Both the position numbers and the translations under genes were made by a program. The notes under the pieces were generated by a model. It saw only the letters and a list, made by a program, of their open reading frames with translations, had not been told where the DNA came from and searched no databases. A stretch of DNA of 64,000 bases from Rosa chinensis (Eukaryota > Streptophyta > Magnoliopsida > Rosales > Rosaceae): NCBI RefSeq assembly GCF_002994745.2, contig NC_037093.1, forward strand, positions 45,674,384-45,738,383, given 5' to 3'. Within the stretch, counting starts at the first letter, position 1. Each line of letters begins with the position of its first letter. Below are positions 1,552 through 53,862 of the stretch, piece by piece.

Positions 1552-1554
1552 TAG

Positions 1555-15182: not shown

Positions 15183-15185
<3 letters not shown>

Positions 15186-16404: not shown

Positions 16405-16506
16405 GTGGTTTTGGATGACAAAGAGAGGGATTACACTTGTTAGCATCCATGAAAAGGCCATGGGTGTTTACGGGAGTGCTCCCTCTCTTTGGCATCGAAC
16501 TGTCCA
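16405..16506 (+). ncRNA. Diverged MIR535-like foldback (X1a)
   Basis: The 5' arm at 16416-16436 begins TGACAAAGAGAGGGATTACA. The 3' arm (about 16474-16496, GTGCTCCCTCTCTTTGGCATC region) can still pair with most of it. The loop has the same CATCCATGAAAA...GTGTTTACGGG landmarks as the intact hairpin at 17881-17988, so the two are paralogues from an internal duplication. The mature-arm sequence has drifted from miR535 in its second half and pairing is worse there. It may be a decaying hairpin or one making a different small RNA. Confidence 0.6.
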
Positions 16507-17880
16507 GGTCTATCCTTGATGCTATGTTTCATGTATTTGCATCTTTGGGATGTAAACTAGCTGATAAGCTTATAACATTGTGTAATTTGTCATTTATCTT
16601 TGTCAATCATATTATTTATTCCAGAATGGTTGCCATTAGCCTTTTTGTTGGTTGATGTCTTGTTATGATATGGAGATTAAATGTTGTTGAAGTTGAGTGG
16701 TCATTGTTCATGGATCAATCTCTTAGTACATCAACATATATGGATGCGTTATCTTGTTAATTACATTACAGTCACTTGTTTGGAAAACTAAAATATTTTG
16801 GCGCATACCCGTTCAGTGATTCAATTTTACATAATTAATTTTTTTTACCTCAATAAAATTTTAACTAATGTAATTTCAATAAAAATTTCTAAATACTTTT
16901 AATCTTCTTTTCTTATCTTTTTGTAAGAATTATCAATAGGACTGGAACATGAGGTGTGGCAGTGATATAAGATGATTAGATTAGGTAGAGATCAACATTC
17001 AGATATGAGTAGTAGGAATGCAAGACATTCAACAGTCAGCTTTGTTTCACTTGATCTATGGAATTGATATTTCACTGCTAACTACGAATCCAAATATTAG
17101 AGTTCATTTGGGCGAAACAATTGGTATGCGATATTGTACATGTGAGAACATATTTGCTTGCCAAGTTCTTCAAGACTATTGTGTTGGATATACTGAAATT
17201 ATTACATACATACAAGTAATAAACAGACAGAAGACTGTATGAAACAGCATGATTGCTAATATGATCACAAACAATGATGATCATGAGCTTGAGGAACATC
17301 AAAGGGAAGTGCTAATTTGTATTGGCACTGCTGAATTGGAGGTTGCGTGTGGATGTTGTGACTCAAGACTTTCTTGCATGTTGTACTATGTTAATTTCAT
17401 GTCGTGGAGACTTTCTTGCATGTGAGGGGGACCAGTTGGTCGTACATTATATAGTTGTACATTTATGATCATGGTTGATGTGTTATTCTTATACTGTTGG
17501 TCTTAACTGTGTATATCTGATTATATCAACCAAATACTGTATGTCCTTTTTCTTCTATTGCGTTTGCTTTCTGTTTTCAGCTGTTTGGTTCTTTTCTTTT
17601 GATTTCTCCAGTCTTGCTTGTTTCGGCAGTTGACCATGTGAATCATGCTTTGCAGACTTGTGTCCCTTATACTGTTATTTAGCCATGTGGCTTATTAATT
17701 GATTTTACCCTTCGACAAAAAAAAAAAAAAAAAAAAAAAACCAAGTAGAGTGGTTTCAGTCTAAATTTGTTTAGCTTTGACATGACAAATGTGGAATTTG
17801 CCACCAAATTTCTTAGTAAATTTATCTCGATTGTTGAAAACATTCTAATCTGGCTCTTTGCCATTACTGAGGCAAGCTAT

Positions 17881-17988
17881 GATTGGATTTGTTTGACGAT
17901 GAGAGAGAGCACGCTTGTCGGCATCCATGAAACATTCATGAGTGTTTACGGGCGTGCTTCCTCTCATCGTCATACAATCGATCTAATC
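17881..17988 (+). ncRNA. MIR535: MIR535 precursor hairpin, copy X1b
   Basis: A foldback of about 108 nt. The 5' arm 17894-17914 reads TGACGATGAGAGAGAGCACG plus a final C. As recalled, the common plant miR535 begins TGACAACGAGAGAGAGCAC, so this copy differs at positions 5 and 7. The 3' arm 17952-17972 is its near-perfect complement, and with a 2-nt 3' overhang the star would be 17954-17974. The lower stem also pairs (GATTGGAT with ATCTAATC). miR535 is related to miR156/miR529 and is reported to target SPL transcription factor mRNAs. The neighbouring TWD40-2 fragment is convergent with it. Confidence 0.9.
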
Positions 17989-19462
17989 TTGTGCGCCTTT
18001 TGCATACAAACTAACTGATGATCATAAATTGTGCAAGTTAGTACTTATATATGTCTGTCTCAATATTCTTTTCATAAAGGCTCGCCATTTTCCTTTTCAT
18101 GGTCAATATCCTTTTTCTGATAGAGTTTAAATGTTGAAGAAGTAGAGAACAGTCATTGGTTATGAGTTGATCTCTGAGTTCTTTAGTTATTTGTACTAGT
18201 CACTTATGAAAAATCAAAAGTTTCTTAACATTTCTATTTAGTCATTTTTTAAGGAATAGGAACAAATGACTGGCAATGGTGAGGTGTGGTGGATAGTAAT
18301 TTGATGAACAATAGGTCTTATTTTACTCTTTGTATTTTTTTTTATCTATTTTAGACTTTCAAGGAAGCCCCAGACGGTTTGTAGAGGTATTGTCTTGCTC
18401 CCAACCACAGAATTTGTAGTTTCACTTTTGAGATCCTAAATATGTGTGACTATATAAGCATGCAAGACATTCAAAAATTGGATACTTGGTTGATTATGAT
18501 GCAATTCATATATCCCTATTGACTACGAAAACAAGCATCAGAGTACTTGGTTGTTCAGACTTCAAACAGGTATGGTGGGCAATGCAAGGATACTCCTGCA
18601 GCCCAGGAACCCATGAGTACTTCTACAAGGACGGAAGAAGTGCTAGCTGGCCCTACTTGGCTACAAATCTTATGGTATACACCATAAATGTCAAGTTTCG
18701 TAACAATTGGTAAATATTATAGACCTTTGTACTTATCATATATTTACTAAGTGTCTGTGGTTCATTAGTGTGTAAATATTATTCTTAGAACTGCAACGAG
18801 TGGCCATAGGTTTGGTAAGAAAGTAATAAAGTTAAATTCCTTCTTTGCTCAAATGCGTTGCTAATTGCTAATTCAACGACAAAATGAATGATTAAAGGTC
18901 TGAGACTTTCTTTATTGAAAAACAAAGATATGCTTGTAACTATCCAGTTGCATGTTGTTTATTTTTGTAATGCTCGAGATCTTTGATTAAAATTAGACTC
19001 CAAGCTAAGATAAAGAGATGTTATGCTTATAACTATCCAATTGCATAGGAAGTTATCAACCTCCTAGGAAGATCATATGTGCATTTATACATATTGCTTG
19101 AATATCCTCAGCAAGGATAGGAAAGTTTTGATATCTACATCGTCAAGTAGTTAATACTTTGATTCATTTACATATAGCAGTCACAGATGTTTTATATAAT
19201 GCTGACTTGTACTTGCTAAACTTGTTTTTCAATATTATTGTTCTTGACATATAGAGGTATATGTGATATATGTAAATTTAAGTTATAGACTAACAGAAAT
19301 AGGTGATAACAAAAATAGACTCTTGCCTGAATTCTCTAAATAGCTGAAATTCATACAGTGATATGCATCTAATTATACCTATATAAAAGCCCTCTTTCCT
19401 ATATATTGTCGAACTTATTCTTTTTCTTTCCAGCTGTATATTTCAAGCAAGATTATAAAAGG

Positions 19463-19590
19463 CTACCTTAAGGCACGCTTTCTGCCTAGGCGTAGGCTTA
19501 AATGCAGCAATTGCTCTGGTAAAGTCATGCAGGCGCAAAAAGTGCACAGTAAGAGGGAAAAGCTTAAGCCTCAGGTGCAGCCAAGGCTCT
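19463..19590. repeat. GCCTAGGCG foldback motif, copy 1
   Basis: A short imperfect inverted repeat (AGGCTTAA paired with TTAAGCCT), followed by a pyrimidine tract of variable length. It recurs at about 36680-36810 and 55404-55530. Function unknown. Confidence 0.5.
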
Positions 19591-19700
19591 CTCTTTTTTT
19601 TTTCTTTTTTTCTTTTTCTTTTTCCTGAAAAAATAAATAAATAATCACAACTTACTGAGTGATGAATGAGATCTCTTCCTTCAGCTGCTTCTTCTGGATG

Positions 19701-21240
19701 TTTAGTTAGTTATCTTAATTATCTTCTCATGTCTTTTATCTTTGGTAGTAAGTCTGCTGTAGTTCGGTTGATGTAGAATTCAGGCTCCTTGCAATTATGC
19801 AAGTCTGCTGTAGTTACAATTTTATTACAAAAGATTTGCGCATTTAGAAAACGCTTCTACTTAGTGCCTTTGCCAAAAAAGGCTTGGGTAAGCCTTCTCC
19901 TTTTAAAATTTTGATTTCAAGTAGTGTTCGTGCTTTATTTCCACATGCATCAGCCATGCATATTTGGAAGCCAAATTCAATTCCTTGCAACTCATGAACA
20001 ACCAGGGCTATTACCTAAATGAATGCGCTGGACCTCAAATTTATATTACAGAGACTTCTATTTTTGTTTTGGTTAATGTTAGTATTTAGGCAAATCATTT
20101 ATCCTTTAAGTGGGCACAAGTTTTGCTACTATACCTTATTTGAAGTCTGGTTTTGCTATGTACACTCTATGTTGCCTATACTGATTTCTCATTTATGCTT
20201 TCTTTTCTGTTCTTAACAGGAGCTTAGTTGATAAGTCCTTTCACGTTTTGGATTGATCCAGTGTTCATGGGATTTACATGGAAATGTTCCCTATAAAATA
20301 TTCTTTAGAAGCTGCTATTCAAGGTTGTGGATGCTGTCTCCTTATTTGATTTGATGAATGATCCATTCTGTTTTTAACACCTCCTTTAATTTATCCTTGT
20401 TCCTGAGCTGCACAGGATTGTGAAGTCTAATCCCAACTAAAACCCAGGCTTAAAGTTCTTGTGTGCATGCTTGATGATTGTCTACACGGTGGAAGTTTCA
20501 CAACAGTAAGAATGTGACAGACAGAGACAAACATGCCCGGTACAATACATATCACCGACATTCCAAATTCAAGGATTTCAGGCATACTTGGGACTTTTTC
20601 AGCCTTTCAAGTATATTTGCTTCTTGTCTGGTTTTGGAGATGGCCATGGGACAGGTTTCCTTTCCAAGCTCGGATTACAATCTTGTGATGGAGTACTGTG
20701 TCCGTTGGTTGCCAAACGTCCTTGAGACTATACCTAGTGCATCCAATAGTAGGTTACTGTACAGATGGGAACACACTATGGCATGTAAACATCTCTCTGT
20801 GGAATCTTAAGTTTTATTTTCCAATACTTCGTGTCCCAAAATATATAACTTGAACTCAAAAAGGGAAAATTCCATATCTCCAACCCTTCAATGCAGAATA
20901 TGAAAATCCCGAAATGCAAAAATCCCAAGTTGTAAAAGTTCAAACACATTGTAAAAATCCCAACTTTGAACGTACAATGGTAATAGCAGGGGCGTTCGCC
21001 CAAGTAAAATAGGGTTCATACAACAGACACTCTCGAACAAAATGATATTCAAAATAAATATTTTCTTTTCTTTCTTTACACTTTATTTTCTGATTGGCTG
21101 CTTTACTTGAAAATTTAAACAAAAAATTTAATTATTTTCCCTAGAATTTTAACAATCTTCTATGCAGTTGTTCTTAACATGCAATTTCCATCAAATCATA
21201 GCAGGAAATTCTTTACCGGCATAGCAAGAAATTTCTTATT
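19701..21240. repeat. Segmental duplication, Y-left copy 1 (no gene)
   Basis: Matches 1-1551 but lacks the CACTA element. It carries small differences shared with the 40995-41722 copy, such as the GGGGCGTTCGCCC stretch near 20990. No gene is seen. Confidence 0.85.
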
Positions 21241-21404
21241 GGTTTTTGGTTCTTCATGCAAAAGTGTACTTTCAAATAACTTTTGAGGCCCAATAATATT
21301 TCTAAATTTCATGTAACATTTAAAAGACGGCACAACGAGGATGGACGTGGGCATATGACTAGAGAGTTATATGTACAAGCATATGTAAAATGTCATACAT
21401 GGGC

Positions 21405-22745
21405 ATGAAGCACAGCCTCAGCAAGCATTCCAGTATCCCTGCCAAGCCTTCTCCATGAGGGCATTGTCTCTCAAAACTGCAGCTGCGAATGCGGCTTCCC
21501 CTCCAGCACCAACGGATTACAATTGTTTACCAAATTCTGCATTGCATGTCACTGATTAATTTTAGGAAGTATGATATGGAAATGGAGAAAAGAAATCCTA
21601 TCAGCAAGAATAATCTGGAACACAGCTAAGAGAAAAGTAGACCATTGATATTCCGCAAAGGAAAACAGAGGTGTCAGGAACTAGTATACTGGGAAAGCAT
21701 AGTTTTTATTTTTCAGGGAAAAAAACAAAAAAAGCACAACTTCCCATTTTTTAATTGTATACTGGTCAGAGAAAGAGCGCCCAGAAATCACAGTTTCAAT
21801 TATGAATATGGACAACAATATGGTATGTATTAATTTTTAGGTGTCGTTTTGTCTGTTATTACTATTACGTGCAAATTAAAATAATTGGAAGCACCAGAAA
21901 GCTCATTTACCAAAATAAGCATGTCCAGATATAGATAGCATACACTAAGCCGTGTCAACTCTCCATGATTGGCTAACCGAAGAGCTTGTCCTCTTAATTC
22001 ATGACCCTGTAAAGCTCCTTTCACAGAAGCCGCAGCAGCCAACCTCTTCAGAGCCTCCCGAGCAATTTCAGCCTGTCCAGTAGCGTCTGCGGCATCAATA
22101 AGATCCAAAAACTCCTTTGTAAATTTCACTATTCCTTGGATAGCTTCCAATATATTCTCTTTCTTAGTTGTTATAGTAAGAATGTCCTTCAAATCAAATC
22201 CTGAATTATCTTGCCCCAAGTCCCTGCTGTTGCTCATTGTGACAAGGCACTGGAGAGCTCTTTTCAAATCACTGCTCTGCATGGCCAAATCAAACTCCAA
22301 CCTACAAAACGAGGATAGCATTGTAAGTTTCAAAATGAAATGAAATGTAAGCTGCTTGATGCTTTAAAGCCTTTTCTATCATATAATTGCAGAAAAGGAT
22401 TCAACACAAAAATAATGTTTCAGTCTGCCAGACCCATCAATCATTGAATCAACCTTATAAACTGGTATACAGGTATCTACATATGGCCAGGTTAATACAC
22501 AGTTATTCTACGTACCAGAAGAATAATACATATTTTATACTGGAAACAGAAGAGAAGAAGCCCATCAAAATGAAAATTTATGAATATGCAAAACAGAGAA
22601 CTACACTCAGTCTGTGACATCAAATATGCAAAGCACCTGAATTAATTCATAGTATACCTCTTAGATATTCCAGGTAAATGAAGTGCTTCAGTAGCATAAC
22701 CCATCCCTAGCAGAAACTGCACTAAATCATCATGATGTTAGCTGC
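21405..22745 (-). pseudogene. TWD40-2 3'-half fragment, copy B
   Basis: Minus-strand exons of a TWD40-2 gene: about 22745-22650 (HHDDLVQFLLGMGYATEALH), 22301-21956 (LEFDLAMQSS... to HGELTRL, open throughout) and about 21543-21412 (AAFAAAV, EKAWQ). The last of these has a missing base near 21520 and an extra base near 21438, which break the frame. The first is cut short at about 22745 just before its splice acceptor. The 1.3-kb C-terminal exon is missing, with the same deletion junction (near 21345) as copies A and D. The middle exon is the best preserved and lacks the frame-shifting insertion of copy A. Confidence 0.87.
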
Positions 22746-22749
22746 CAAG

Positions 22750-24490
22750 CCTACTTGTAGCCTCAGAGAATCAATTAAGTAAAGATAATTAATATCTATA
22801 TGCCCTCTCATTTAATATAAAAATAAATTCAAAACAATCTAATTTGAAATTTTCTTAAACTAATTTTCTTAAATATTTTGGTCTAGCTATTACTAATTAA
22901 GATCCAAAGTCAACTCTTTTTAATTAGATCTAATTAATATTTATTATTTATTTGAGAACCAACGTCTTTTTTAAAACCATTCATATTGAAAAAAAAAAAT
23001 TATAATTTAGATTAACAAAAAAATCTTTATAATTGTCTTCATAACAAGTGAATGGTGGATTTTCACATAACTTAACATAACAAAAACAAAAAAATAAAAC
23101 AAAACATTCATATTACAAATGAACCCTCGAATAATTATCTAGATAAAAGTGAAAATTCACCGCACATAAAATTACTGGTGGATTTTCACATAACTTAACA
23201 TAACAAAAACAAAAAAATAAAAACAAAAAAAAACAAAACAAAACATTCATATTACAAATGAACCCTCGAATAATTCATAAAATTACACTTGCATTTGTTC
23301 TTTTTTTTATATATTTTTTTTAAAGAAGCTAGAGCCAATGTATTGATCAAAAGCCAGAATGGTCATTACATTCTTTTCTATTGTCACTAGACAGACAAGA
23401 AAATGTGTTAGTACTCACAATGGTATATATAACTAAGTCACTCATTTGACATTAAATACATCGAAATAGCATAAATCCTCCTTCGATACTACTCTAGAGG
23501 CATGAAAGTGCATACCTCCCTAAAATACTTAGGGAATTGTTGAAAGTAAACTAAATTATTAACCTACAGTTCCCTAAACAAGGGAAATAACAGAAAGAAA
23601 AAAAAAACTAACTATTTAAAAGCCTAACTGCCCCAAAGAAAAATTAGAACCCTAGGCCCAATCGCTAACCTAGCCCAGTTCCACCTCCACCTCCATGTGC
23701 TGAAAACTATGCACGCACACCGCAAGCAACCGCCACGACACACTAAAATGGTACCGCCGCCACCCCACTTCAAGGAACACTGCCATCACCATGTCGCCAC
23801 CACCTAGAGGACATCAGGGAACCCGGAAAGCACAAGACTCGATCCAAACTGGAAACAAATCCCTTGTGCCTTGAAAAAATGCCAACTGCACCCCATCGAT
23901 AACGCCGCTCTACCACCGTCGCTTGGATCAAAATAAAATGAAATTATCATATAAAAGCATCCAATAAAAGTATAAAATAAAAAAGATACACATCTCTTAT
24001 AATTCTTTTCACCAAATCCGTTTTCACAGTTTTAAGCTACTCTAATTTCGCTTACTACAAAAGGATAAAATTTCATAAATAAAAAAGAATGTTTGCAAGC
24101 AGTCTTACTTTCGACTCTAACTTCTTCAATTCTCTTATCTTCCTTATTAGTTGGTACAGAAGTTTGTTCATAGATAATCTCATTGTTGTATATATATCTT
24201 ATGATTATGATTTTTTTATTATTATCAACAATGTGCCATTAGACAACTAATGACAGTTATGGATCTAAAACTAATTAATTCTTTTGAAAATGTGTCACAA
24301 CTCAAACCTGAGTTATGACTAATGTGGTGGTTTAAAACTAAAATCAGTGTAAGGGATTTTTTTAATTTATTTTTTTGTTCAGAAGCCAAGAAAATTGAAA
24401 TCGATGGCTTGTGTTGACGTTCAAATACATTTTTGTTGAAGGTAGAAAGCTACATGACTTTAAGAGTTATTGCTAGGTGACAAAACAATA
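22750..24490. repeat. Segmental duplication, Z copy 1 (no gene)
   Basis: Matches 5646-7113 plus 14595-14810 and keeps the unoccupied MULE target TTAATTCTTT at 24275-24284. A short local duplication (about 23045-23165 repeated at 23175-23285) is special to this copy. No coding sequence is seen. Confidence 0.8.
23300..23945 (-). mobile_element. Non-LTR retrotransposon remnant (paralogue of 6131-6800)
   Basis: The same truncated retroelement as at 6131-6800, duplicated with unit Z and not inserted independently: flanks and internal sequence match throughout. The poly-T head is interrupted here. No coding part is seen. Confidence 0.6.
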
Positions 24491-24697: not shown

Positions 24698-24706
24698 ATT
24701 TTACAT

Positions 24707-25893: not shown

Positions 25894-25902
25894 ATTTTAC
25901 AT

Positions 25903-29246: not shown

Positions 29247-29259
29247 CTTCATGATTTTA

Positions 29260-33534: not shown

Positions 33535-33610
33535 TGGTGGTTTGGATGACAGAGAGAGAGAGTACACTTGTCAGCATCCATGAAAACCCCTCTCTTTGTC
33601 ATCGTACTGC
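33535..33610 (+). ncRNA. MIR535-like foldback with shortened 3' arm (X2a)
   Basis: The 5' arm 33547-33567 begins TGACAGAGAGAGAGAGTACA. The 3' arm (33587-33603, CCCCTCTCTTTGTCATC) is joined directly to CATCCATGAAAA, having lost about 25 nt that X1a keeps (GCCATGGG to GTGCTC). The upper stem is therefore gone and normal processing is doubtful. The 5' arm is intermediate between miR535 and miR156 in appearance. Confidence 0.5.
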
Positions 33611-35091: not shown

Positions 35092-35199
35092 GATTAGATT
35101 TGTTTGACAATGAGAGAGAGCACGCTTGTCAGCATCCATGAAACAGTAATGAGTGTTTACGAGCGTGCTCCCTCTCATCGTCATACAATCGATCTAATC
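35092..35199 (+). ncRNA. MIR535: MIR535 precursor hairpin, copy X2b
   Basis: The 5' arm 35105-35125 reads TGACAATGAGAGAGAGCACG plus C. It differs from the commonly quoted miR535 only at position 7 (C to T), so it is one step closer to consensus than the X1b and X3b copies. The 3' arm 35163-35183 pairs along the length and the star would be 35165-35185. The lower stem pairs through GATTAGAT and ATCTAATC. Same layout and neighbours as the other two hairpins. Confidence 0.9.
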
Positions 35200-36679: not shown

Positions 36680-36810
36680 GGCTACCTTAAGGCACGCTTT
36701 CTGCCTAGGCATAGGCTAAATGCAGCGATGGCTCTGGTAAAAGCAAGCAGGCACAAAAATTGCACAGGAGGAGGGAAAAGCTTAAGCCTCAGGTGCAGCC
36801 AAGGCTCTTT
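36680..36810. repeat. GCCTAGGCG foldback motif, copy 2
   Basis: Paralogue of 19463-19590, with a shorter, T-rich tract at its right end. Confidence 0.5.
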
Positions 36811-36900
36811 TTTTTTTTTTTCTTTTCTCCTGAAAAAATAAATAAATAATCATGAGTTACTGAGTGATGAATGCGATCTCTTCCTTCAGTTACACTTCTT

Positions 36901-38514: not shown

Positions 38515-38979
38515 CCTTTTACCAACAACTCTGCAATATGTTGAGAGAATTTGGTTGGCACCCTTTTGAAGGTGGTACTCTGGGCTTCCAACTAAAGGCT
38601 TGCAGCAAGGACACTTTTCACTTTGTCTTGATTGCTATTGAAATTTCAACCAAAAAAATAAAAATAAAAATATTTTGGAACAAGGATAAAGCCGCCAAAT
38701 GCAATGCCTGTTTACAACCTCATCAACTCATTTATCTGTTATCAACATCAAAAGGAGAGAAGATGCTAACGAATCGATAGTACACTGGATAATACAAACA
38801 CATGCCAAAGCTTACTGGAACAAAAATTATACACAAACCTACTGCTACTTCAGAATGGTATCTCACTTTGCCACCAAACTGAATAGTTAGACCACTGTGG
38901 TTCCTTTATACGACAAATGCCATGGAGCTTCTGGAAAAAATCACAAATATCTGCCAGTCACCTGAGCTACAACAGGTTT

Positions 38980-40794
38980 CTAGTAATTAAGCCAATCATC
39001 ACTTATTGGCAATCTTGCTTGTTTGGTTTCCTGAATCGCTGGCACCTGGGGTTGGGTTTGTAATGGTGGTGTCTGGATTGGGACCTGTGGTTGCGGCACT
39101 TGAGATGAGGCCTCTGGTTGCGGCGCCTGGGATGAGGCCTCTGGTTGCGCCGCTTGGGATGAGGCCTCTGGTAGCGGCGCCTGGGATGGGGCTTCTAGTT
39201 GCGGTGCCTGGGATGGGGTATCAGGTTGCGGCGCTTGGGATGGGGCATCAGGTTGCGGCGCTTGGGATGGGACATCAGGTTGTGGCGCTTGGGATGGGGT
39301 TGCATCAGGTTGTGGGCCTTGGGATGCGGCATCAGATTGTGAGGTTTGAGGTGGCGCATCTGATGGCGTGTCTGATGGTGCCACATCATTCTTAGAATTT
39401 TCCGGGACACTTTCTCCAGAAGCAACTGGAGCTGGATTACTGTCTGTTGATGAAACAGGGGGATTATTGTCTGAAGTTGGTTCACCTGATTCAGATTGTT
39501 GTGGCACACTTGAAGGGGTGGTGTGGTAGCAGGGGCTGCTTCTAACAGCAGTGGCTTGCCCGGTTGCTGCTGTGAATTCTGGGCCCCTGGAGGCGGTTTC
39601 TTTTGAACAGCCATAGCAACTGTAAGAGATGGCATCCCTGGAGGAAGAATTTCAGTTGGTGGTTTCTTGGCAGCATCTGCTAAACTTGTAAGCTTGGGTT
39701 CCTCCAGAGAAGCCAAAAATGCTGCAACAGCATCCGTTTTTTCTAATGGGGTGTGCTCAACGTCCTTTTGCAGCATTTTATTCCATGCCTGAACCAAGTT
39801 CTTCAATGTTGGTCTCCCATGAGCCTGCAATATCCATGAGGTCAGCTCACAGCAATGACTCGAGAGTTATATGTACAAGCATATGTAAAATGTCATACAT
39901 GGGCATGAAGCACAGCCTCAGCAAGCATTCCAGTATCCTGCCAAGCCTTCTCCATGAGAGCATTGTCTCCCAAAACAGCAGCTGCGAATGCTGCTTCCCG
40001 TCCAGCACCAATGGATATTAAATTGTTAACCAAATTCTGCATTGCATGTCACTGATTTTAGAAAGTATGATATGGAAATGGAGAAAAGAAATCCTATCAG
40101 TAAGAGTAAATTGGAACACCGCTAAGACAAAAGAAGACCATTGATATTCCGCAAAGGAAAACAGAGGTGTCAGGAACTAGTATATTGGGAAATCATAGTT
40201 TTTATTTTTCAGGGAAAAAACAAACAAAAAAAAGCAACAACTTCCCATTTTTTTATTTGTATACTGCTCAGAGAAAGAACACCCAGAAATCACAGTTTCA
40301 ATTATGAATATGGACAACAATATCATATGTATTAATTTTTAGGTGTGGTTTTGTCTGATATTACTATTACGTGCAAACCAAAATAATTGGAAGCACCAGA
40401 AAGCAAAATAAGCATGTTCAGATATAGATAGCATACACTAAGCCGTGTCAACTCTCCATGATTGGCTAACTGAAGAGCTTGTCCTCTTAATTCATGACCC
40501 TGTAAAGCTCCTTTCACAGAAGCCGCAGCAACCAACCTCTTAAGAGCCTCCCGAGCAATTTCAGCCTGTCCAGTAGCATCTGCGGCATCAATAAGATCCA
40601 AAAACTCCTTTGTAAATTTCACTATTCCTTGGACAGCTTCCAATATATTCTCTTTCTTAGTTGTTATAGTAAGAATGTCCTTCAAATCAAATCCTGAATT
40701 ATCTTGCCCCAAGTCCCTGTTGTTGCTCATTGTGAGAAGGCACTGGAGAGCTCTTTTCAAATCACTACTCTGCATGGCCAAATCAAACTCCAAC
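38980..40794 (-). pseudogene. TWD40-2 3' half with last exon, copy C
   Basis: Three consecutive exons with good splice sites: 40794-40439 (LEFDLAMQSSDLKRALQ... to HGELTRL), 40036-39899 (NLVNNLISIGAGREAAFAAA... to VLHAH) and 39824-38980 (AHGRPTLKNLVQAWNKMLQK, then LADAAKKPPTEILPPGM, then a Pro/Gln-rich tail). They match the C-terminal half of plant TWD40-2, a TPLATE-complex subunit. The tail has about nine 27-bp repeats encoding units such as APQPDAPSQ (about 39090-39340). The frame shifts by one base between 39517 and 39534, splitting the last exon into two open frames, and the upstream exons are cut off at about 40990 by a duplication junction. It looks nearly functional in sequence but cannot make a full protein here. 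The assignment to TWD40-2 over TWD40-1 is from memory of the family. Confidence 0.87.
39090..39340 (-). repeat. Coding minisatellite (27-bp unit)
   Basis: About nine units encoding variants of A-P-Q-P-(D/E)-(A/V)-P/S-S-Q within the TWD40-2 tail. Units differ by a few bases, so the array is not brand new. Confidence 0.8.
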
Positions 40795-40994
40795 CTACAA
40801 AACGAGGATAGCATTGTAAGTTTCAAAATGAAATGAAATGTAAGCTGCTTGATGCTTAAAAGCCTTTTCTATCATATAATTCAGAAAAGGATTCAACACA
40901 AAAATAATGTTTCAGTCTACCAGACCCATCAATCATTGAATCAACCTTATAAACTGGTATGCAGGTATCTACATATGGTCAGGTTATTACACAG

Positions 40995-41722
40995 TTATTG
41001 CACCAAAAGGGTAATACATCACCGACATTCCAAATTCAAGGATTTCAGGCATACTTGGGACCTTTTCAGCCTTTCAAGTATATTTGCTTCTTGTCTGGTT
41101 TCGTAGATGGCCATGGGACAGGTTTCCTTTCCAAGCTCGGATTACAATCTTGTGATGGAGAATGTGTCCGTTGGATGCCAAACGTCCTTGAGACTATACC
41201 TAGTGCATTTACTAGTAGGTTACTGTACAGATGGGAACACTCTATGGCATGTAAACATCTCTTTCTGGAATCGTAAGTTTTATTTTCCAATACTTGGTGT
41301 CCCAAAATCTGTAACTTGAACTCAAAAAGGGAAAATTCCATATCTCCAACCCTTCAATGCAGAATATGAAAATCCCAAAATGCAAAAATCCCAAGTTGTA
41401 AAAGTTCAAACACATTGTAAAAATCCCAACTTTGGACGTACAATGGTAATAGCAGGGGCGTTCGCCCAAGTAAAATAGGGTTCATACAACAGACACTCTC
41501 GAACAAAATGATATTCAAAATAAATATTTTCTTTTCTTTCTTTACACTTTATTTTCTGATTAGCAGCTTTACTTGAGAATTTAAACAAAAAATTTAATTA
41601 TTTTCCCTAGAATTTTAACAATCTTCTATGCAGTGGTTCTTAACATGCAATTTCCATCAAATCATAGCAGGAAATTCTTTACCGGCATAGCAAGAAACTT
41701 CTTATAGGTTTGTGGTTCTTCA
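40995..41722. repeat. Segmental duplication, Y-left copy 3 (partial)
   Basis: Corresponds to about 870-1555. It joins TWD40-2 copy C intron sequence abruptly at about 40990, a duplication junction, and ends where the LINE is inserted. No gene is seen. Confidence 0.85.
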
Positions 41723-42840: not shown

Positions 42841-43503
42841 TAGGGAAAGAATGGGAAGTGGGGCCGGAGAGTATGGGTGGCAGCCTCCAAGGAGGGGTTG
42901 TTTAAAACTGAACTGTGATGGTGCAGCATCTGATCTAGTTTAAACCGATATGGAGTTGGTTTTGTTGTGAGGTGCGAATTGGGGACTATCGTGGTGGCTG
43001 CTGGGCAAAGGATTGTGTATCCAGTTTCAGCTTTGGTGTCGGAGTTGCTAGCTATTAAAGGAGGATTGGAGATAGTGAAGGAAAGAGGTTTACGTGAGGT
43101 GGAAGCGGAGACTGATTGCCTGGGAGCTGTGCAGCTTATTAACAAACAGGACAAATGTTTTGCGGCGGAAGGTATTATCGTGGAAGAGATCCAGACTCTG
43201 TTAAGAGACCTCCAGATCTCTGTGGTTAAGCACACGTCGCGGGACAATAATAAGGCAGCCCATGCAATTGCAAGCTTTGTAGCCCGAGAGGATGGGCGAG
43301 TATTATGGTTAGAGGATGGGCCTTCATTGCTCATGTCCATCACTGAGAGTGAGAGGCCTTTCACCGAGGTAGAAGAGAGGGAAATGAGTAGTGTTTGTAT
43401 CCCTAGTGTGTTGGGTGATACTGAGGCTACATCGGGTCATTCCCGAATTATGTAATTTTGATTTTCATTAATAAAGTTTTATTAATTCTCAAAAAAAAAA
43501 AAA

Positions 43504-44117
43504 CTTTTGAGGCCCAATAATATTTCTAAATTTCATGTAACATTTAAAAGACGGCACAACGAGGATGGACGTGAGCATATGACTCGAGAGTTATATGTAC
43601 AAGCATTATGTAAAATGTCATACATGGGCATGAAGCACAGCCTCAGCAAGCATTCCAGATTTCCAGTATCATGCCAAGCCTTCTCCATGAGGGCATTGTC
43701 TCCCAAAACTGCAGCTGCGAATGCGGCTTCCCCTCGAGCACCAACGGATTACAATTGTTTACCAAATTCTGCATTGCATGTCACTGATTTTAGGTATGAT
43801 ATGGAAATGGAGAAAAGAAATCCTATCAGCAAGAGTAATATGGAACACAGCTAAGATAAAAGTAGACCATTGATATTCCGCAGAGGAAAACATAGGTGTC
43901 AGGAACTAGTGTACTGGGAAAGCATAGTTTTTATTTTTCAGGGAAAAAAAGAAAAAAAGCACAACTTCCCATTTTTTAATTGTATACTGGTGAGAGAAAG
44001 AGCGCCAAGAAATCACAGTTTCAATTATGAATATGGACAAAAATATGGTATGTATTAATTTTTAGGTGTCGTTTTGTCTGTTATTACTATTACGTGCAAA
44101 TTAAAATAATTGGAAGC
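43504..44117 (-). pseudogene. TWD40-2 copy D, 3' part
   Basis: Contains the AAFAAAVLGDNALMEKAWQ exon (about 43760-43630, - strand). It has an extra block (CCAGATTT) near 43655 and a base missing near 43750, which break the frame. It carries the same last-exon deletion as copies A and B (junction near 43572). Copia-1 is inserted at 44117/44118 in the next intron, and the gene fragment continues at 51401. Confidence 0.85.
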
Positions 44118-44729
44118 TGTTAGAATATGTGGACTCAACATTATCTTAATCACATTGAGATAAAACCAGCTGATTTAATCCTATGTAAATAACAAGAAGT
44201 ACATGAATATAACTCTAATTCCAGTTATCTACGTGGGTGTATATCTCCTAGTAGAAGTAGGAAACTCATTTGTAATCAACCTGAATTACATTAAGTGTTT
44301 GTGATAAACTCTAAGTCTCCTGTCTCGATAAACATGAAGAAGTGTTGGACTCCTTATGGGATGAGTCTAACTCGTGGTTTTGGCCAATATATAAAGGGAG
44401 CAAAGTCCCTGTATTCATCACCCGTTGTTAAGCATATTGTTCAGCCCCATTCTGAAGCTTTTGGTGTTGACATACAGAAGGCTTTCTGCTCTAGTTCTAT
44501 TGCTATTCATTCTCAGTTCTAGTTGCTCAAGATGTCTAACTTTGGTCAAGTTGTTTCTGCAGGGATCCAGAGCGTCAATGATCCAGGTGGAGTCCTAGTA
44601 CCACTAAGAAAAGCTATTCTGCAGTTTCTGTGTGGATGTTGTGCAGCTGGTTTAATTGATATTGTATATGTGTTGTATGATATGATCTTGTGTTTGATGT
44701 GTTGGTTGTTGCATCATGTAGATTTAACA
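44118..44729 (+). repeat. Copia-1 5' LTR
   Basis: Starts TGTTAGAATATG and ends GATTTAACA. CCAATATATAAAGGG near 44384-44398 is a CCAAT/TATA promoter. It differs from the 3' LTR only at 44520. Confidence 0.95.
44388..44398 (+). promoter_or_regulatory. TATA box of copia-1 5' LTR
   Basis: TATATAAAGGG, preceded by CCAA. The matching position in the 3' LTR is 51059-51069. Confidence 0.7.
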
Positions 44730-44731
44730 AT

Positions 44732-44743
44732 TGGTATCAAAGC
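44732..44743 (+). other. Copia-1 primer binding site
   Basis: TGGTATCAAAGC lies two bases after the 5' LTR. It matches the initiator tRNA-Met site TGGTATCAGAGC except for one base. Confidence 0.85.
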
Positions 44744-45928
44744 TTAGGAACTTCATAAAACACATATCATGCGTTTTTTGTTTTGGTTCAGAAAATTCAT
44801 ATTGTGAAAACTATTTTCTGTTTAGACTAAAAGCAGGCCTTAAGTGGTTTTAACCCGGCTTTAATACTAATCCAATTCATTAAGCAAATAAGCCCAAACC
44901 CGAGTCCAAAATTAATATATAAATTTAAGAATATTACCGTTGGAACATAACGGTCACTTTTGCTTTAGGGATCGGATTGAGTTAGGGCTCACTGAGATAA
45001 ATTCTCGGTTATGGGATTCAAGACCCCTCTTTAGAATTGATTGGATCATGTGGAAGGGTTGAAATTGCTGCTTGTTTTCTTTTGCTTCCGCTATAAAATT
45101 TTTGTTGCAGCGCTGTAGCAGAGGCCAAGGTATGTTCATTGGGAATCCCAGAACTTGTATTTCAATTTCTGCATATGGAAAGGGTTGTCATATGGATTAC
45201 TGTTTAGCATATGGAAAGGGTTGTCATAATCATATTTGGAATGCTTGATCATGCATATTGAAGGAATTCTGCATATATGGTTGAATGACTTACTGTAATC
45301 GTGTGATATGAAGTTTTGGTTTTGAGAACTATATGATTACTGTGATGGTATGATTTGATGATTTTGATTGAGTATTGGTTGTTTTAAGTATGCCATGGTT
45401 TTTAGCTGACAATTAGGAATATATCTCCCAACATAAAATCTGCAGTATTGTTATTTTCATGGCATAAAATTAATAAGTTCATACAGAAACTGAGCATATG
45501 GTTATTAATTCTAGTTTTGATATTCTTGAAAGATTGTATTGGTCATTTTGCACAAAGCAAGTTTTCATTATCACTCTTCAAGGATTTTAAGTTTTAACAA
45601 AACTGGAACTTGTGTTTCTGCATTTAAAATTGCACTTATATTTTATCTTCCAAAGAAGTTGTTCACTGTGTAATTCTGAATGCAAAACAGCATCATATGT
45701 AATCACAACTATCTATTTAGATACCTTGAAGCTTTTCTTATCCAAAGATTTTGACTGGTTCAAGGAATGACTGATTTTTGTTAAATGCAGTATGGTGATT
45801 TAGAACTTTAGAATGTTGAGTTTTATGCCACAAAGGTCTTACTTGATGTTATTTTAGTTATGGGGTTTTATGGAAAACTAATCATGTATCTGCTAAAATT
45901 TTAAAGCTCATGACTACTTTTAAACTTT
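44744..45928 (+). other. Copia-1 leader (no gene)
   Basis: A 1.2-kb non-coding leader. It contains a direct repeat of AGCATATGGAAAGGGTTGTC (about 45172 and 45207). A TTTTTAG acceptor-like site at 46031-46037 suggests a leader intron, in which case gag starts later than the first ATG at 45929. Confidence 0.5.
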
Positions 45929-48900
45929 ATGTCTTTTGCTTGTGTTATTCAAATACATGATTTTGTTTTAAAGATTAACAGACAGATAAATTCTTTTACT
46001 GCAGAAATCTTATTTTCTTTATTTTATGTGTTTTTAGGTCTAAATGTGGTCACTATAGGCCAAATTCAGTTGCTTAATGGATGGAATTATAAGAAGTGGA
46101 GAAACCAAGTTGAATTTTATCTGTCTATGCATCAAAATATGGATCTTTGCTTGATTGAGGAACAGCCATTAGAGCTAGACACTGAGAGCACAGAAGAAGA
46201 TAGAAAATACTATAAGGAGTGGTATAGCGCCAATAGGAAAGCCAAAAATGTGATAAGAACTTCTATGTCTGACACAGTTAGGGGCTCGATCATTGAGCCA
46301 GAGCTTGCCATGGATTTTCTAGAAGCCATAGGAGATAAATATCAGGAGAGTGACAAAGCTGAGGCAGCTAGGCTATCCAAAAGATTTAATGAGCTGGAGT
46401 TTTCAGGAAAAGGAAGTGTGAGGGAGCACATTATGGAGCTAATTGACCTCAACTCGAGGCTGAGGGATTTAGACATGGGAGTTAAAGACTCTCAGGTAGT
46501 GCATGTGGCACTTCAGTCATTGCCTAACACCTACAGTAACCTGAGAACCTCCTACCATGCCCAAGAGTCTAACTGGGATTTGAACAAGTTAATTTCTATC
46601 TGTGTAGTAGAGGAAGAGAGAATCAGGAAGGAAGGCAGACCAGCTACTGCAGTCAACCTAGTTGAGAAGCCTAAGTGGAAGAAACAGAACATACTTAAGG
46701 CCAAGAAGACTACCACCACTAAAGTACCTGGCAAACCTGCAGAACATAAAGCTGACAAACCTTTTAAGTTTAAGTGCTATTTTTGCAAGAAAATAGGGCA
46801 CATGAAGAGAGACTGCAGTGGTTTCAAGGCTTGGATGATAAAGAAGGGGGAGTCTTTTCCAAATTCTGTCTTTTCTCTAGAAGTTAATTTTGTTAATATA
46901 GCATCTCACTCTTACTGGTTAGACTCAGGCTCACCTATACACATTACGAATTCCTTGCAGGGTTTAACAAACAGGAGGACACCAAATAAAAGTGAGGTCC
47001 AAGTTTGTGTGGGAAATGGTTCGAGAGTAGCAGTTAAGGCCATTGGGACTCTGAAGATTGATTTAGGCTTAGGAAATTTTCTTTTTCTAGATAGTGTTTA
47101 TTATATTCCTTCCTTGAAAAGGAATTTGATTTCAGTAGGTCTTTTAGTTAAGATTGGTTGCAAACTCATTATTGATTTCAGTGGAATAAAGTTATTTCAG
47201 GGTTCAAATTATCTTGGCTGTGGTGTGTTTGTGCATGATTATTTGAAATTAGATTGTTCTGTTGCTCAACAGGAAATTATGTTGATTGAAAATAATCAAA
47301 ACACTATAAAGAATAACACTGTCACAGGTACAAAGAGAACATTGTTCAATAATAAGTCTGCAAATATGTGGCATAGAAGATTAGGCCATATATCCAAAGA
47401 AAGACTTAAAACACTCGAGAAAAATAAAATTTTACCTGCATTAGATTATACAGATTTAAATGACTGCATTGAGTGTTTTAAAGGGAAATTGACAAACTAC
47501 AGAAAGAAAAAGGCCTTAAGAAGTCAAAACCTATTAGAACTAATACATACAGGTGGTCCATTTAAACACAAAACTATCTGTGGAAATTTTTACTTCATCA
47601 CATTCATAGACGATTTTTCCAGGTACTGCTATATATATTTACTGTCAGAAAAATCACAAGCTCTAGATGCATTCAAAATTTATAAAACTGAAGTTGAATT
47701 GCAACTAGAGAAGAAAATTAAGCTAGTGAGATCTGATAGGGGAGGGGAGTTCTATGGGAAACACACTGAAGCAGGCCAGCAGAAGGGTCCTTTTGCACTA
47801 TATTTACAGGAAAATGGCATTAAGGCTCAGTACACAACTCCCTATAATCCTACACAAAATGGAGTAGCAGAAAGGAAAAATAGGACTTTATTAAACATGG
47901 TGAGAAGTATGATGTGCACTACAGGTCTACCTATATTTTTATGGGGTGAGGCTCTTAAGACTGCAAATTATATTTGCAACAGATCACCTAGTAAATCAGT
48001 AGACAAAACACCTTTTGAGTTATGGTGTGGAAGGCAACCTAACTTGCATCATTGTCATGTGTGGGGATGCAAGGCTGAGGCAAAATTGCCAAATGCACAG
48101 ACACAGAAACTTGAATCCAAAACAGTCAGTTGCCATTTTATTGGCTACTGTGAGAAATCTAAAGGCTATAGGTTCTATGCAGCTCAAAATTTTACCAGAA
48201 CTTTTGAAACTCATCAAGCAAAATTTCTGGATGAAGGATTTAGTAATACTAACTTTGAAGACTTGTCCTTGGAGTTAGAAGAAATTACTGAAAACCAAAA
48301 TTTACAGAATATCTTACCTTTAATTCAGTCAAACAATGCAGATAATGCAGATACAGAAACTCCAAGCCAAAATCAAGCTTTAGAAGAACCAGTAGGCTTA
48401 GAACCTCATATAGATGAACCTACGGATAATGTCCATTTAGAAAATAACCCTGCAGAAGAACAAAATCCACCTCAGCCTAGGAGATCCCAAAGAGAGAGAA
48501 GACCAGTATATGGGGAAGATAGTGATTTTGTAGTGTACCTGCAAGAAACTGATATTCTAAGTGAAGATAATGATCCTTCAAGCTTCAAGCAAGCTGTTGA
48601 GAGCCATGAAGTTGAAAAATGGCAGAAGGCTATGAAGGCTGAGATTGAGTCAATGCAGCAGAATTCAGTATGGGAATTGGTTAAACCAAACCCAAACCAA
48701 AAACCAATAGGCTGCAAATGGGTGTTTAAGACAAAGAGAGATGCAAATGGAAATGTAGAAAGGCATAAAGCCAGGCTAGTAGCTAAGGGTTTCACACAAA
48801 AGGAAGGGATAGACTATACATAAACATTCTCTCCAGTTTCAACTAAAGACTCATTTAGGATTATAATGGCTCTAGTAGCTCATTATAACATGGAGCTGCA

Positions 48901-50158
48901 TCAAATGGATGTGAAAACAGCTTTTTTGAATGGGGAATTAGATGAGGTCATCTATATGAAACAACCTGAAGGTTTTGTGAAAACAGGAAAAGAAGATCAT
49001 GTATGCAAACTGAAAAGATCAATTTATGGACTTAAGCAGGCTTCTAGACAATGGTATAAGAAGTTTGATTCAGTAATTTCATCTTTTGGTTTTTCAGAAA
49101 ATATTGTGGATGAATGTGTATACATTAAGACAGTTGGAAGTAATTTTATTTTTCTTATACTGTATGTGGATCATGATATTCTCTTAGCAAGTACTGACTT
49201 TAAATTGCTTAGAGATACCAAAGCCTTTCTGTCTAAAAATTTCGACATGAAAGATTTGGGTGAGGCATCCTATGTTTTAGGAATTGAAATTAAGAGAGAC
49301 AGGTCACAAGGCTTATTAGGCTTATCTCAACACAATTACATCACAAAAGTGTTGAAGAGATTTGGTATGGAATCTTGTGCTTCAGGTGATGCACCTATGA
49401 CAAAGGGTGACAAACTGTCCAAAAACAAAAATTCTAAAAATGGGGGGAAGATGTCTGATATGGAAAGCAAACCTTATGCTAGGTTAATTGGTAGCCTAAT
49501 GTATGCACAGGTCTGCACTAGACCTGATTTGTCATTTGCAGTTGGAATTTTATCTAGGTTTCAGTCTAATCCTACCCATGAACACTGGGTTGCAGGAAAG
49601 AAAGTACTTAGATATCTGCAGAAAACCAAATCTCACATGTTAGTTTACAGACAAGTTAAGAAGCTTGAACTAGTTGGCTATACTGATTCAGACTTTGCAG
49701 GCCATTATCCAGATTCTAAAAAGTCCACATCTGGTTATGTCTTCATGCTTGCAGGAGGGGCTGTTGCATGGAAAACCATGAACCAGTCATTGATTTCAAC
49801 CTCCACTATGCAGGCTGAGTTCATAGCCATTTATGAAGGAGTCTGTGAAGGCTTGTGGATCAAAAATTTTCTATTGCATACTAAAGTATTAAGTTCAATT
49901 GTTTCAGATGCATTGAAAATATTTTGTGATAATGAGGCTGCAGTATTTTTTGGTAAAAACAGTAAGAGGTCCAACAACTCTAAACACATAGATTTAAAAT
50001 TCTATAGTGTTAGAGAAAGAGTGAAGCATGGTGAGATAAATGTCTTGAACATAAATACAGAGTCACAGCTAGCAGATCCCTTCACTAAAGCATTATCAGT
50101 TACAAGTTTTCAGAAGCACACCAAGAACATGGGAATTCTATCTGAATTGGAGGCTTGA
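45929..50158 (+). pseudogene. Copia-1 gag-pol polyprotein, inactivated
   Basis: One frame of 1409 sense or stop codons. Gag has a zinc knuckle (CYFCKKIGHMKRDC, residues 283-296). Protease has DSG (about residue 332). Integrase has an HHCC finger (HRRLGHIS...CIECF), a DDE core and NGVAERKNRT. Reverse transcriptase (WVFKTKRDANGNVERHKARL onward) and RNase H (YTDSDFAG, MQAEF, FCDNEA) follow. Three defects stand out. The usual HTDxCGP, with the first catalytic Asp, is HTGGP (47549-47560), a two-residue loss. TAA at 48821-48823 replaces a sense codon in GIDYT-x-TFSPVS. The RT motif YVDD reads YVDHD (49163-49177), with an inserted His. Both halves remain in one frame, so no frameshift is involved. 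The start at 45929 is uncertain: the conserved gag begins near TIGQIQLLNGWNYKKW. Confidence 0.93.
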
Positions 50159-50775
50159 GTTCAGTGGGAGCCAATTTTAACTTTTAGAATTTTATTTTGT
50201 GTAATAGGATTCTTGCTCCAGTTATTGTCGTTTTTGTTTTTGCTTGTAATTTTGATACTGCAGTTTCTGAATAAAATGAGGTATTTCATATATGTGTTTC
50301 TTTTGGTTTCAGCATTATTTTATTTTCTGCAGTCTTGCAAATTACAGTTTTTGAACTTTAAAATATCAATGTGTGTTATCAAGTGAACTTTTCTGCATTG
50401 AGGAATTTTGCAGCTTCAGTTTTAGTTTTCAGTTAAGCAAATATCAGTTCACTAGTGGTTTCAGTTTTGCTGTTAAGATTTTGAATTGTCAAAATCATTT
50501 TGTTGGACTATGAGCATTGGATTTTTGCAGGTAGATATACTTATCCAAATTTTGCTCTTATTATCACTTTGAGCTTATGTGATTGCAGTATTTGATGTTA
50601 GTGATCTTTAATCAATCTGGTTATTTAATCAAAATTGGTTTGAGATTCTGCGTTATTTTCTGCAAATTGACCAAGCTGAATGAGCTATGAGTTTTTGTGT
50701 ATTTCAGTGCACACTTCAGTTTGTTGTCTATATGGGGTTATTAGTTCAGTTGTGTTGTGTACAGACAATGTTAGT
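50159..50775 (+). other. Copia-1 3' untranslated region
   Basis: About 620 bp between the pol stop and the polypurine tract. T-rich, with no frame of note. Confidence 0.6.
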
Positions 50776-50788
50776 CCAAGTGGGAGAA
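50776..50788 (+). other. Copia-1 polypurine tract
   Basis: CAAGTGGGAGAA directly before the 3' LTR, the site for plus-strand priming. Confidence 0.85.
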
Positions 50789-51400
50789 TGTTAGAATATG
50801 TGGACTCAACATTATCTTAATCACATTGAGATAAAACCAGCTGATTTAATCCTATGTAAATAACAAGAAGTACATGAATATAACTCTAATTCCAGTTATC
50901 TACGTGGGTGTATATCTCCTAGTAGAAGTAGGAAACTCATTTGTAATCAACCTGAATTACATTAAGTGTTTGTGATAAACTCTAAGTCTCCTGTCTCGAT
51001 AAACATGAAGAAGTGTTGGACTCCTTATGGGATGAGTCTAACTCGTGGTTTTGGCCAATATATAAAGGGAGCAAAGTCCCTGTATTCATCACCCGTTGTT
51101 AAGCATATTGTTCAGCCCCATTCTGAAGCTTTTGGTGTTGACATACAGAAGGCTTTCTGCTCTAGTTCTATTGCTATTCATTCTCAGTTCCAGTTGCTCA
51201 AGATGTCTAACTTTGGTCAAGTTGTTTCTGCAGGGATCCAGAGCGTCAATGATCCAGGTGGAGTCCTAGTACCACTAAGAAAAGCTATTCTGCAGTTTCT
51301 GTGTGGATGTTGTGCAGCTGGTTTAATTGATATTGTATATGTGTTGTATGATATGATCTTGTGTTTGATGTGTTGGTTGTTGCATCATGTAGATTTAACA
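50789..51400 (+). repeat. Copia-1 3' LTR
   Basis: 612 bp, the same as the 5' LTR except C at 51191. Confidence 0.95.
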
Positions 51401-53287
51401 GAAGCACCAGAAAGCTCATTTACTAAAATAAGCATGTCCAGATATAGATAGCATACATTAAGCCGTGTCAACTCTCCATGATTGGCTAACCGAAGAGCTT
51501 GTCCTGTTAATTCATGATCCTGTAAAGCTCCTTTCACAGAAGCCGCTGTAGCCAACCTCTTCAGAGTCTCCCGAGCAATTTCAGCCTGTCCAGTAGCGTC
51601 TGCGGCATCAATAAGATCCAAAAACTCCTTTGTAAATTTCACCATTCCTTGGACAGCTTCCAATATATTCTCTTTCTTAGTTGTTATAGTAAGAATGTCC
51701 TTCAAATCAAATCCTGAATTATCTTGCCCCAAGTCCCTGCTGTTGCTCATTGTGAGAAGGCACTGGAGAGCTCTTTTCAAATCACTGCTCTGCATGGCCA
51801 AATCAATCTCCAACCTACAAAACGAGGATAGCATTGTAAGTTTCAAAATGAAATGAAATGTAAGCTGCTTGATGCTTAAAAGCCTTTTCTATCATATAAT
51901 TGCAGAAAAGGATTCAACACAAAAATAATGTTTCAGTCTGCCAGACCCATCAATCATTGAATCAACCTTATAAACTGGTATACAGGTATCTACATATGGC
52001 CAGGTTAATACACAGTTATTCTACGTACCAGAAGAATAATACATATTTTATGCTGGAAACAAAAGAGAAGAAGCCTATCAAAATGGAAATTTATGAATAT
52101 GCAAAACAGAGAACTACACTGAGTCTGTGACGTCAAATATGCAAAGCGCCTGAATTAATTCATAGTATACCTCGTAGAGATTCCAGGCAAATGAAGTGCC
52201 TCAGTAGCATAACCCATCCCTAGCAGAAACTGGGCTAAATCATCATGATGTTCTCTACCAAGCCTACTTGCCCTGCATAAAAGAATAACTTGTAGCGTCA
52301 GATAATCAATGCTATATCTCATATACAACATTAGGCCAGGAAAAAAAAAATCTCATTTAAAACTGTAGAGAGTGACTGATACCATTTCACAGCACTAACA
52401 GCATCTCCATAAGCAGCAAGGCACCGGCAGCGGATACCAGGGTGGCTGAGGGATTAGGCATGAGCACTCATGTATCTGCCAGAATGATTTCAAGCAGTTA
52501 TTCAATCATAAATTTCTTCTCCAATCAAAACTTCAGCTACAATGACTAATGAAAGTAACTCCGTTATATCCACTAATAATCAGACTCAGACCACAGTGCA
52601 CTCGGTAGCCAGTCAAAACAAAAAAAAGAAAGTGCAAATTACTGCACTAGAGCACCGAGGAATGAGGAATGAGGATAGAAAACCAGGCAAACCAACTGAC
52701 CAAGTTGTTTTAAAGATATCAGTGAATCAAAGGATACTTTCTTTTAAAGTTTCCTGTCCGTAACTTCTTTCGGATCCAAATAAAAACTCATAAAACTTTA
52801 TGATAAAACTCACAAATCTATGAAGCAACATCAAACATTACTATTCATGGAGTCCTTTTTTGTTCATACTAAATATTGTATATGATAAATAATGGAACAA
52901 GAGAAAGGAAATTGCTTGTGTTAACATGCATGTACTTGTTGAAAGACTATATATGATATGTTTTATGGGCATGAATATTAACAACATACAAGTATTAGCA
53001 GCTGATCCTTGAAGGAAAAGGGGGTCCATTACCTATCAATTAGCCAAAGAACACCATCTTTGACACCCACCACAACCAGAGGTCCTACAGGTCGTTTCTG
53101 CTCTAATGGAAAACGAGTAACTGCAACTGATGAGACCCCTCCACCACCAACAGCCACCTCGTTAACATTTCTTTCTTCTGCAATCCCAGAATCATACCCA
53201 TCAACTCTAGATTGCTTTGACAAGGTTAAGAATGGGGGCACAGATGGAGCATGCTGAAATGAGGCTAATCGCACCACCTAAAACACG
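51401..53287 (-). pseudogene. TWD40-2 copy D, 5' part (four exons)
   Basis: Exons on the - strand: 53277-53033 (RLASFQHAPSVPPFL... to DGVLWLIDR), 52475-52383 (YMSAHA...SLSHPGIRCRCLAAYG), 52272-52171 (ASRLGREHHDDLAQFLLGM) and 51814-51459 (LEIDLAMQSS... to HGELTRL). Splicing is consistent in phase (DR|YM, KW|AS, TR|LE). Lesions: TAA at 52456-52454 where related proteins have a hydrophobic residue, and the donor after the 51814-51459 exon is AT where copy C has GT (51458-51457). Copia-1 and a LINE interrupt the rest. At 53287 the fragment ends abruptly against unit X3. Upstream WD40 exons are absent. Confidence 0.9.
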
Positions 53288-53754
53288 ACTGTATGTCCTT
53301 TTTCTTCTATTGCTTTTGCTTTCTGTTTTCAGCTGTTTGGTTCTTTTCTTTTGATTTTTTCGTTCTTTTCTTTTGATTTCTCTAGTCTTGCTTGTTTTGG
53401 CAGTTGACCATGTGAATCATGCTTTGCAGACTTGTGTCCCTTGTACTGTTATTTGGCCATTGCCTTATTAATTGAATCTACCCTTCAAAAAAAAAAAAGG
53501 GTACAGTGGTTCCAGTCTGGGGGTTTCTCTAGGTATGCACTGCTGTAGTCATTTTCTTTTGCCTAAATCTAGGTCAATTAATTGTTGATGATTGCAGTTT
53601 TGGTATTGGTACTTCTGTATCATTTGCTTTCTCCCAAATTTGTTTAGCTTTGACATGACAAGTGTGGAATTTGCCAGCCAAATTTCTTAATAATTTTATC
53701 TCGATTGTTGAAAACATTCTAATCTGGCTCTTTGCCATTACTGAGGCAAGCTAT

Positions 53755-53862
53755 GATTGGATTTGTTTGACGATGAGAGAGAGCACGCTTGTCAGCATCC
53801 ATGAAACATTCATGAGTGTTTACGGGCGTGCTCCCTCTCATCGTCATACAATCGATCTAATC
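53755..53862 (+). ncRNA. MIR535: MIR535 precursor hairpin, copy X3b
   Basis: The 5' arm 53768-53788 has the same 21 bases as the X1b copy (TGACGATGAGAGAGAGCACG plus C). The 3' arm 53826-53846 pairs with it (GCGTGCTCCCTCTCATCGTC plus A) and the star would be 53828-53848. The arms match better than in X1b, which has one more mismatch (CTTCC for CTCCC). The sequence upstream that could hold its promoter has been replaced by TWD40-2 copy D, so its transcription may depend on new sequences. Confidence 0.9.

Follow-up and report, generated by a model that had tools for sequence, protein, structure and literature searches.

The detected MIR535 loci of the rose genome very probably form a single layered tandem array of eight copies

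All MIR535 loci that could be detected in the genome of Rosa chinensis very probably belong to one tandem array of eight copies, which grew in layers. The starting point is a 64,000-nucleotide stretch of contig NC_037093.1 (hereafter the window and C6, respectively; the window is C6:45674384-45738383), which holds three of the canonical copies. Genome-wide, the eight canonical hairpins (C), one in each of the units a to h, lie within about 150 kb at C6:45.619-45.769 Mb of the 515-Mb assembly (Table 1). Tandem MIR genes as such are already known; here, however, a single layered array next to the likely source locus comprises every member of the miR535 family detected in the genome. No earlier report of this MIR535 array was found in the portions of the literature examined.

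Table 1. Units, hairpins and the duplication junction of the rose MIR535 array (window positions, unless prefixed C6)
Feature	Position	Strand	Details
Rest of unit c, class III	1..7130		Blocks X (1-1550), Y (3073-4344) and further, by self-BLAST; its C hairpin lies outside the window
Unit d	14847..24474		Spacer S, D1, C1, X (19709-21234), Y (21241-22536), further block
Unit e	31763..41722		Spacer S, D2, C2, X (36912-38410), 3' exons of the WD40-type gene (-), extra X piece (41013-41722)
Unit f	53290..57215		C3 and block X
Canonical MIR535 hairpin C1, unit d, class I	17881..17988	+	Mature 17894-17914; RF00714 88.2 bits; -62.6 kcal/mol
Canonical MIR535 hairpin C2, unit e, class II	35092..35199	+	Mature 35105-35125, G5A; RF00714 88.6 bits; -55.4 kcal/mol
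Canonical MIR535 hairpin C3, unit f, class III	53755..53862	+	Mature 53768-53788; RF00714 92.1 bits; -64.7 kcal/mol
Diverged sister hairpin D1, unit d, decaying	16403..16510	+	RF00714 61.8 bits, under the cut-off of 64
Truncated sister hairpin D2, unit e	33533..33616	+	27 bits; lacks the loop and part of the 3' arm (24-column deletion)
WD40-type gene fragment	43498..53289	-	In-frame stop; split by copia element
Duplication junction	53289..53290		Interior of the WD40-type gene meets sequence 465 bp upstream of C3; same join in unit c
C hairpin starts, units a, b, c	C6:45619855, 45639828, ~45672490		Genome RF00714 search
C hairpin starts, units d (C1), e (C2), f (C3)	C6:45692264, 45709475, 45728138		
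C hairpin starts, units g, h	C6:45751859, 45768706		
Intact D, unit a	C6:45618212		73.5 bits; -63.2 kcal/mol
Intact D, unit g	C6:45750198		76.2 bits; -62.2 kcal/mol

The earlier note had placed three MIR535 foldbacks on the plus strand of the window, and these are borne out both by their folds and by the Rfam covariance model RF00714 (gathering cut-off 64 bits), with which they score 88-92 bits. All three 108-nt regions are highly stable, with z-scores of -11 to -12, and for each none of 200 shuffled sequences was equally stable. They fold into a stem-loop with a 21-nt miRNA/star duplex of few mismatches, the mature lying on the 5' arm. The description of the hairpins as near-perfect with intact arms is loose for C2, where the changed mature base is accompanied by an A.C mismatch in the duplex, and for C1, the star of which contains one G.U pair. 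The extent given for the array (16405..53862) needs amending, as its start falls on a fourth, diverged hairpin (D1) and the array continues beyond both ends of the window. The mature motif with up to three mismatches is found six times within the window against 0 expected. A TATA-like motif is absent from the 420 bp upstream of C1-C3 and of D1, and one is present upstream of D2.

Since the hairpins are near-palindromic, the minus strand also matches RF00714, at 72.0-78.7 bits (17887-17981, 35098-35192 and 53761-53855); the 5' arm of these antisense hairpins differs from the searched mature motif by one or two bases. The mature sequences of miR156 and miR529 are related to that of miR535. Membership in MIR156 or MIR529 was rejected, with at most 35.3 against 62 bits (RF00073) and 35.7 against 75 bits (RF00908), and every hairpin scores best with RF00714. 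At least two MIR156 loci, both on the same contig (C6:68279504 and C6:60635570), exceed the Rfam cut-off (59 of 22,990 candidates scored).

A search of the assembly with RF00714 gave 22 matches, representing both strands of 11 hairpins, all at C6:45.618-45.769 Mb and none elsewhere among the 52 of 38,568 first-look candidates that were scored, so that a diverged copy at another site may have escaped detection. The gathering score is exceeded by all eight C hairpins and by two of the three full-length sister hairpins (D), and D1 and the truncated D fall below it. The exact 21-nt mature has seven matches in 515 Mb, all inside the array, and seven of the eight C copies share an identical mature, C2 of unit e being the sole exception. 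When up to three mismatches are allowed, the genome holds 23 matches, namely the eight matures and eight antisense star sites of the array and seven sites elsewhere; all of these seven carry three mismatches, and a reversed control motif has five matches. The distance between hairpin and block X in three units (1828, 1820 and 1892 bp) led us to expect another hairpin about 1.8-1.9 kb to the left of the window, and the hairpin of unit c was then located 1,893 bp to the left of it. Neighbouring C hairpins are spaced by 17-33 kb and those three units apart by 56-72 kb.

Self-BLAST confirms that the three hairpins of the window sit in copies of one duplicated unit, the blocks of which are repeated and interrupted by mobile elements. 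From a to h, the units follow the order I-II-III-I-II-III-I-II, class I comprising a, d and g, class II b, e and h, and class III c and f. The sister hairpin follows the same classes, being full-length in a, d and g, present with one and the same deletion in b, e and h and absent from c and f. In an eight-way alignment spanning -118 to +1750 around C, the biallelic informative columns favor beh (83 columns), followed by adg (8), cf (7), the best rival split acfg/bdeh (6) and ag (5), and private gap runs number 11 for beh and two for adg. In the tree, beh and cf each have a support of 100, and class I (adg) does not form a clade. Over aligned stretches of at least 600 bp, the mean identity is 95-98% within a class and 85-94% between classes, and a 12.35-kb stretch over the a/b boundary matches g/h at 96.7%. 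Units three apart are therefore more alike than neighbours and are arranged in a fixed order, despite exceptions between classes, where single stretches reach 96-98% (for example, f-g at 97.4% over 1,192 bp and pieces of e and g at 97-98%). Unit e holds extra class-I-like pieces, and block Y of unit c is absent from unit f. The lack of a class I clade, the acfg/bdeh columns and the high identity of some stretches between classes indicate a mosaic, and thus, judged by its sequence, the array is a higher-order repeat with some mosaicism.

Such likeness within a class (95-98%) could also arise from an assembly artefact, in which collapsed or duplicated haplotypes appear as repeats. However, the copies have insertions and private indels of their own and class II differs from the other units by about 9% or more, and we reject this explanation as highly improbable. 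The p-distances of block X range from 0.65% (c-f) to 11.7%; at a substitution rate of ~7e-9 changes per site per year, these correspond to roughly 0.5 to 9 million years. A fairly recent duplication is supported; the earlier note had suggested a very recent one as an alternative to selection on dosage.

The sister hairpin is found about 1.5-1.7 kb upstream of C in six units, where it is near-perfect in two (a and g), decayed in one (d) and truncated by one common deletion in three (b, e and h); the truncated forms no longer make the stem-loop and duplex expected of a miRNA precursor. The intact D of units a and g predict a separate 21-mer. D1 differs from the intact D of unit g by six mismatches over 98 nt. 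The flanks of D and C are 65-70% alike over ~600 bp, and we infer that the two hairpins go back to an old duplication. When D1 is compared with the three C hairpins of the window, the core of the hairpin is 77-79% alike and gapless (p 0.024-0.078), and the whole 108-nt hairpin is no better conserved than the flanks (p 0.32-0.43). In nine sequences, comprising seven C (with f also standing for the identical g) and two of the three full-length D, changes on both sides of a pair were seen at four pairs and in six cells, values reached by 11 of 500 shuffles for the pairs and by none of 500 for the cells. This suggests that pairing was kept after D and C split, although shared descent by itself can also give values above those of such shuffles. 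When D1 is set against D2, divergence is if anything greater in the hairpin than in the near flanks (p=0.029; p=0.13 against all flanks), and this comparison of hairpin and flank reveals no constraint on either.

The likely parent locus lies at the right edge of the array, where MIR535 borders the 3' end of a WD40-type gene. The D-C pair adjoins the 3' end of this minus-strand gene, the longest copy of which lies at that edge in unit h, with exons running on rightward to an N-terminal exon about 9 kb away that carries a weak WD40 match (E 0.014, below the cut-off). One homologue is named a transducin/WD40 repeat protein, and the parent gene may be TWD40-1 of the TPLATE complex (AT3G50590). Four probe-matched exons of the unit h gene contained no stop in one search. 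In a second search the h match 2-51 has one TAA, as do the c and f matches; this h match extends two residues beyond the match 2-49 of the first search, and so probably beyond the end of the exon. An in-frame stop interrupts each of the gene fragments in a, c, d and g and the one between e and f, and the fragments in b and e are shortened by rearrangement. All 22 genome matches of the WD40-type gene probe lie at C6:45.625-45.776 Mb, and thus no further copy of the gene seems to exist and unit h is the likely source. The interior of the gene is joined to sequence that lies 449 bp (unit c) and 465 bp (unit f) upstream of C, and this join is identical in both units and blunt in the BLAST pieces; homology to h stops at array position 175938 and homology to g starts at 151389. 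A single tandem duplication would yield this join and account for the missing D of class III.

The open reading frame at 40332-40826 on the minus strand matches Rosa chinensis LOC112169589 at 100% identity and 94% query coverage; this gene model has apparently been placed on one of the WD40-type gene fragments. A 27-bp minisatellite (39079-39339) lies in the C-terminal coding part of a fragment and encodes proline/glutamine-rich repeats. Searches of solved structures with two of the gene-fragment reading frames returned one chance-level match for one of them and none for the other.

Several mobile elements occur in the window. A young copia-type LTR retrotransposon (44118-51400), with LTRs at 44118-44729 and 50789-51400 that are 99.8% identical and a 5-bp target duplication GAAGC, is inserted in the WD40-type gene fragment. 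A second LTR element (57641-63638) has 179-bp repeats that are 99.4% alike, a target duplication TATTT and a gag reading frame at 61313-62389 (-). Remnants of a Mutator-like (MULE) transposase with MULE, SWIM and weak PB1 matches are present at 8155-10573, within an interval (7131-14594) that is not repeated elsewhere in the window.

While the segments around MIR535 were amplified, the reason for their amplification has to be weighed. We lean slightly towards a neutral by-product of local instability, that is, of unequal exchange in a TE-rich region with MIR535 as a passenger like the WD40-type gene fragments. Stop-bearing gene fragments travel in the same units, there are several TE insertions, and the constraint on the hairpin is weak; however, all eight C fold and pass the Rfam cut-off, while D is truncated or decayed in four of six units. 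Selection on dosage, as put forward in the earlier note, would instead have built and kept the array, with extra copies raising miR535 and shifting SPL-dependent phase change or flowering, a reading that we consider doubtful. Among the three copies of the window, seven of 108 hairpin columns are variable against 183 of 1649 in the flanks (p=0.085), so the stems are not clearly better conserved than the flanks, and the absence of indels from them is unremarkable (P(0)=0.16-0.46). Among all eight copies, the hairpin has accumulated 10 steps over 108 sites where 19.4 are expected, about half the rate of the flank (274 steps over 1528; p=0.018), and none of 65 gap runs touches it. However, the 118 bp upstream are equally slow (10 steps in 108 sites), the mature (1 step over 21; p=0.11) and the mature/star duplex (3 over 42; p=0.060) are less decisive, and of 174 gapless 108-nt segments, counting those that overlap the hairpin, 55 have no more steps than it does. 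The same mature is retained in seven of eight copies, but when the same changes were placed at random, at least seven unchanged matures remained in 37% of placements (p=0.37) and mean fold stability was as good in 16% (p=0.16). The argument of the earlier note, which leads from stems that stayed paired in disrupted surroundings to selection on dosage, is weak. Modest constraint acts around C, and it supports dosage selection weakly.

Published small RNAs bear on the same question. The available part of a rose study lists miR535 UGACGAUGAGAGAGAGCACGC at 67,950, 30,364, 24,750 and 51,647 in four rose columns (PMC3527192), an abundance that would suit dosage selection, but gives flavone synthase as its predicted target in rose. 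The same 21-mer is present in strawberry with HMGR1 as degradome target (PMC3747199), and apple miR535 exceeds 20,000 RPM with a cysteine protease as its single target (PMC3446319). The accessible Rosaceae papers hence name targets other than SPL, which counts against dosage selection through SPL, and the SPL link of miR535 is one at the level of the family. In grape, miR156/miR535 and SPL have been treated together, and a bulge in the miR535 seed was noted (PMC6404619). Another rose study includes the identical 21-mer, under the name rhy-miRC9, among its 'novel' miRNAs, of which it is one of the most strongly expressed; by its sequence rhy-miRC9 is miR535. In the part available, miR535 is also listed there as known, with star 'No' in rose petals, and a star is not marked for rhy-miRC9 (PMC3655976). 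Small RNAs reverse-complementary to MIR535 have been reported from rice (PMC3479107). The 21-nt rose reads in the accessible reports correspond exactly to the mature common to seven array copies and are thus not specific to a copy; they would come from this array if the sequenced roses resemble the assembly. Parts of the D arms, the C star and the C2 mature had no match in the searchable text of published papers.

Based on these observations, we propose that after the old duplication into D and C, one tandem duplication created the c/f join and class III, and that later duplications involved blocks of several units, along with some exchange among the classes. Each C unit would give rise to a transcript that is processed to the same 21-nt miR535, and the product of all copies would act as one pool on target mRNAs (SPL in other plants), with weak constraint on any single copy because the copies are redundant. 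The copies being in tandem, their number could change by simple recombination, through unequal exchange between units or between three-unit blocks. An extension of this scheme, in which the recombining array is an adjustable dosage locus for the whole miR535 supply, varies in copy number among accessions and, through the D of a and g, makes a second 21-nt RNA with a sequence between miR535 and miR529, is speculative and in our view unlikely. The dosage of miR535 is directly testable, there being one locus to count among accessions or to delete as a block.

In sequence, hairpin shape and the 5'-arm position of the mature, the rose copies are like other members of the MIR535 family (RF00714), from which they differ by the arrangement of eight copies in a higher-order tandem array and by the diverged sister hairpin in six units. 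Grape MIR535A-E likewise comprise several precursors with an identical mature in one genome, the arrangement of which is not given in the accessible part of the report (PMC2831844). Rice MIR169n/o are, like the rose copies, a recent tandem MIR duplication, but the rice pair, 3.7 kb apart, consists of two copies with no higher-order repeat described in the part available (PMC2670843), whereas the rose array has eight.
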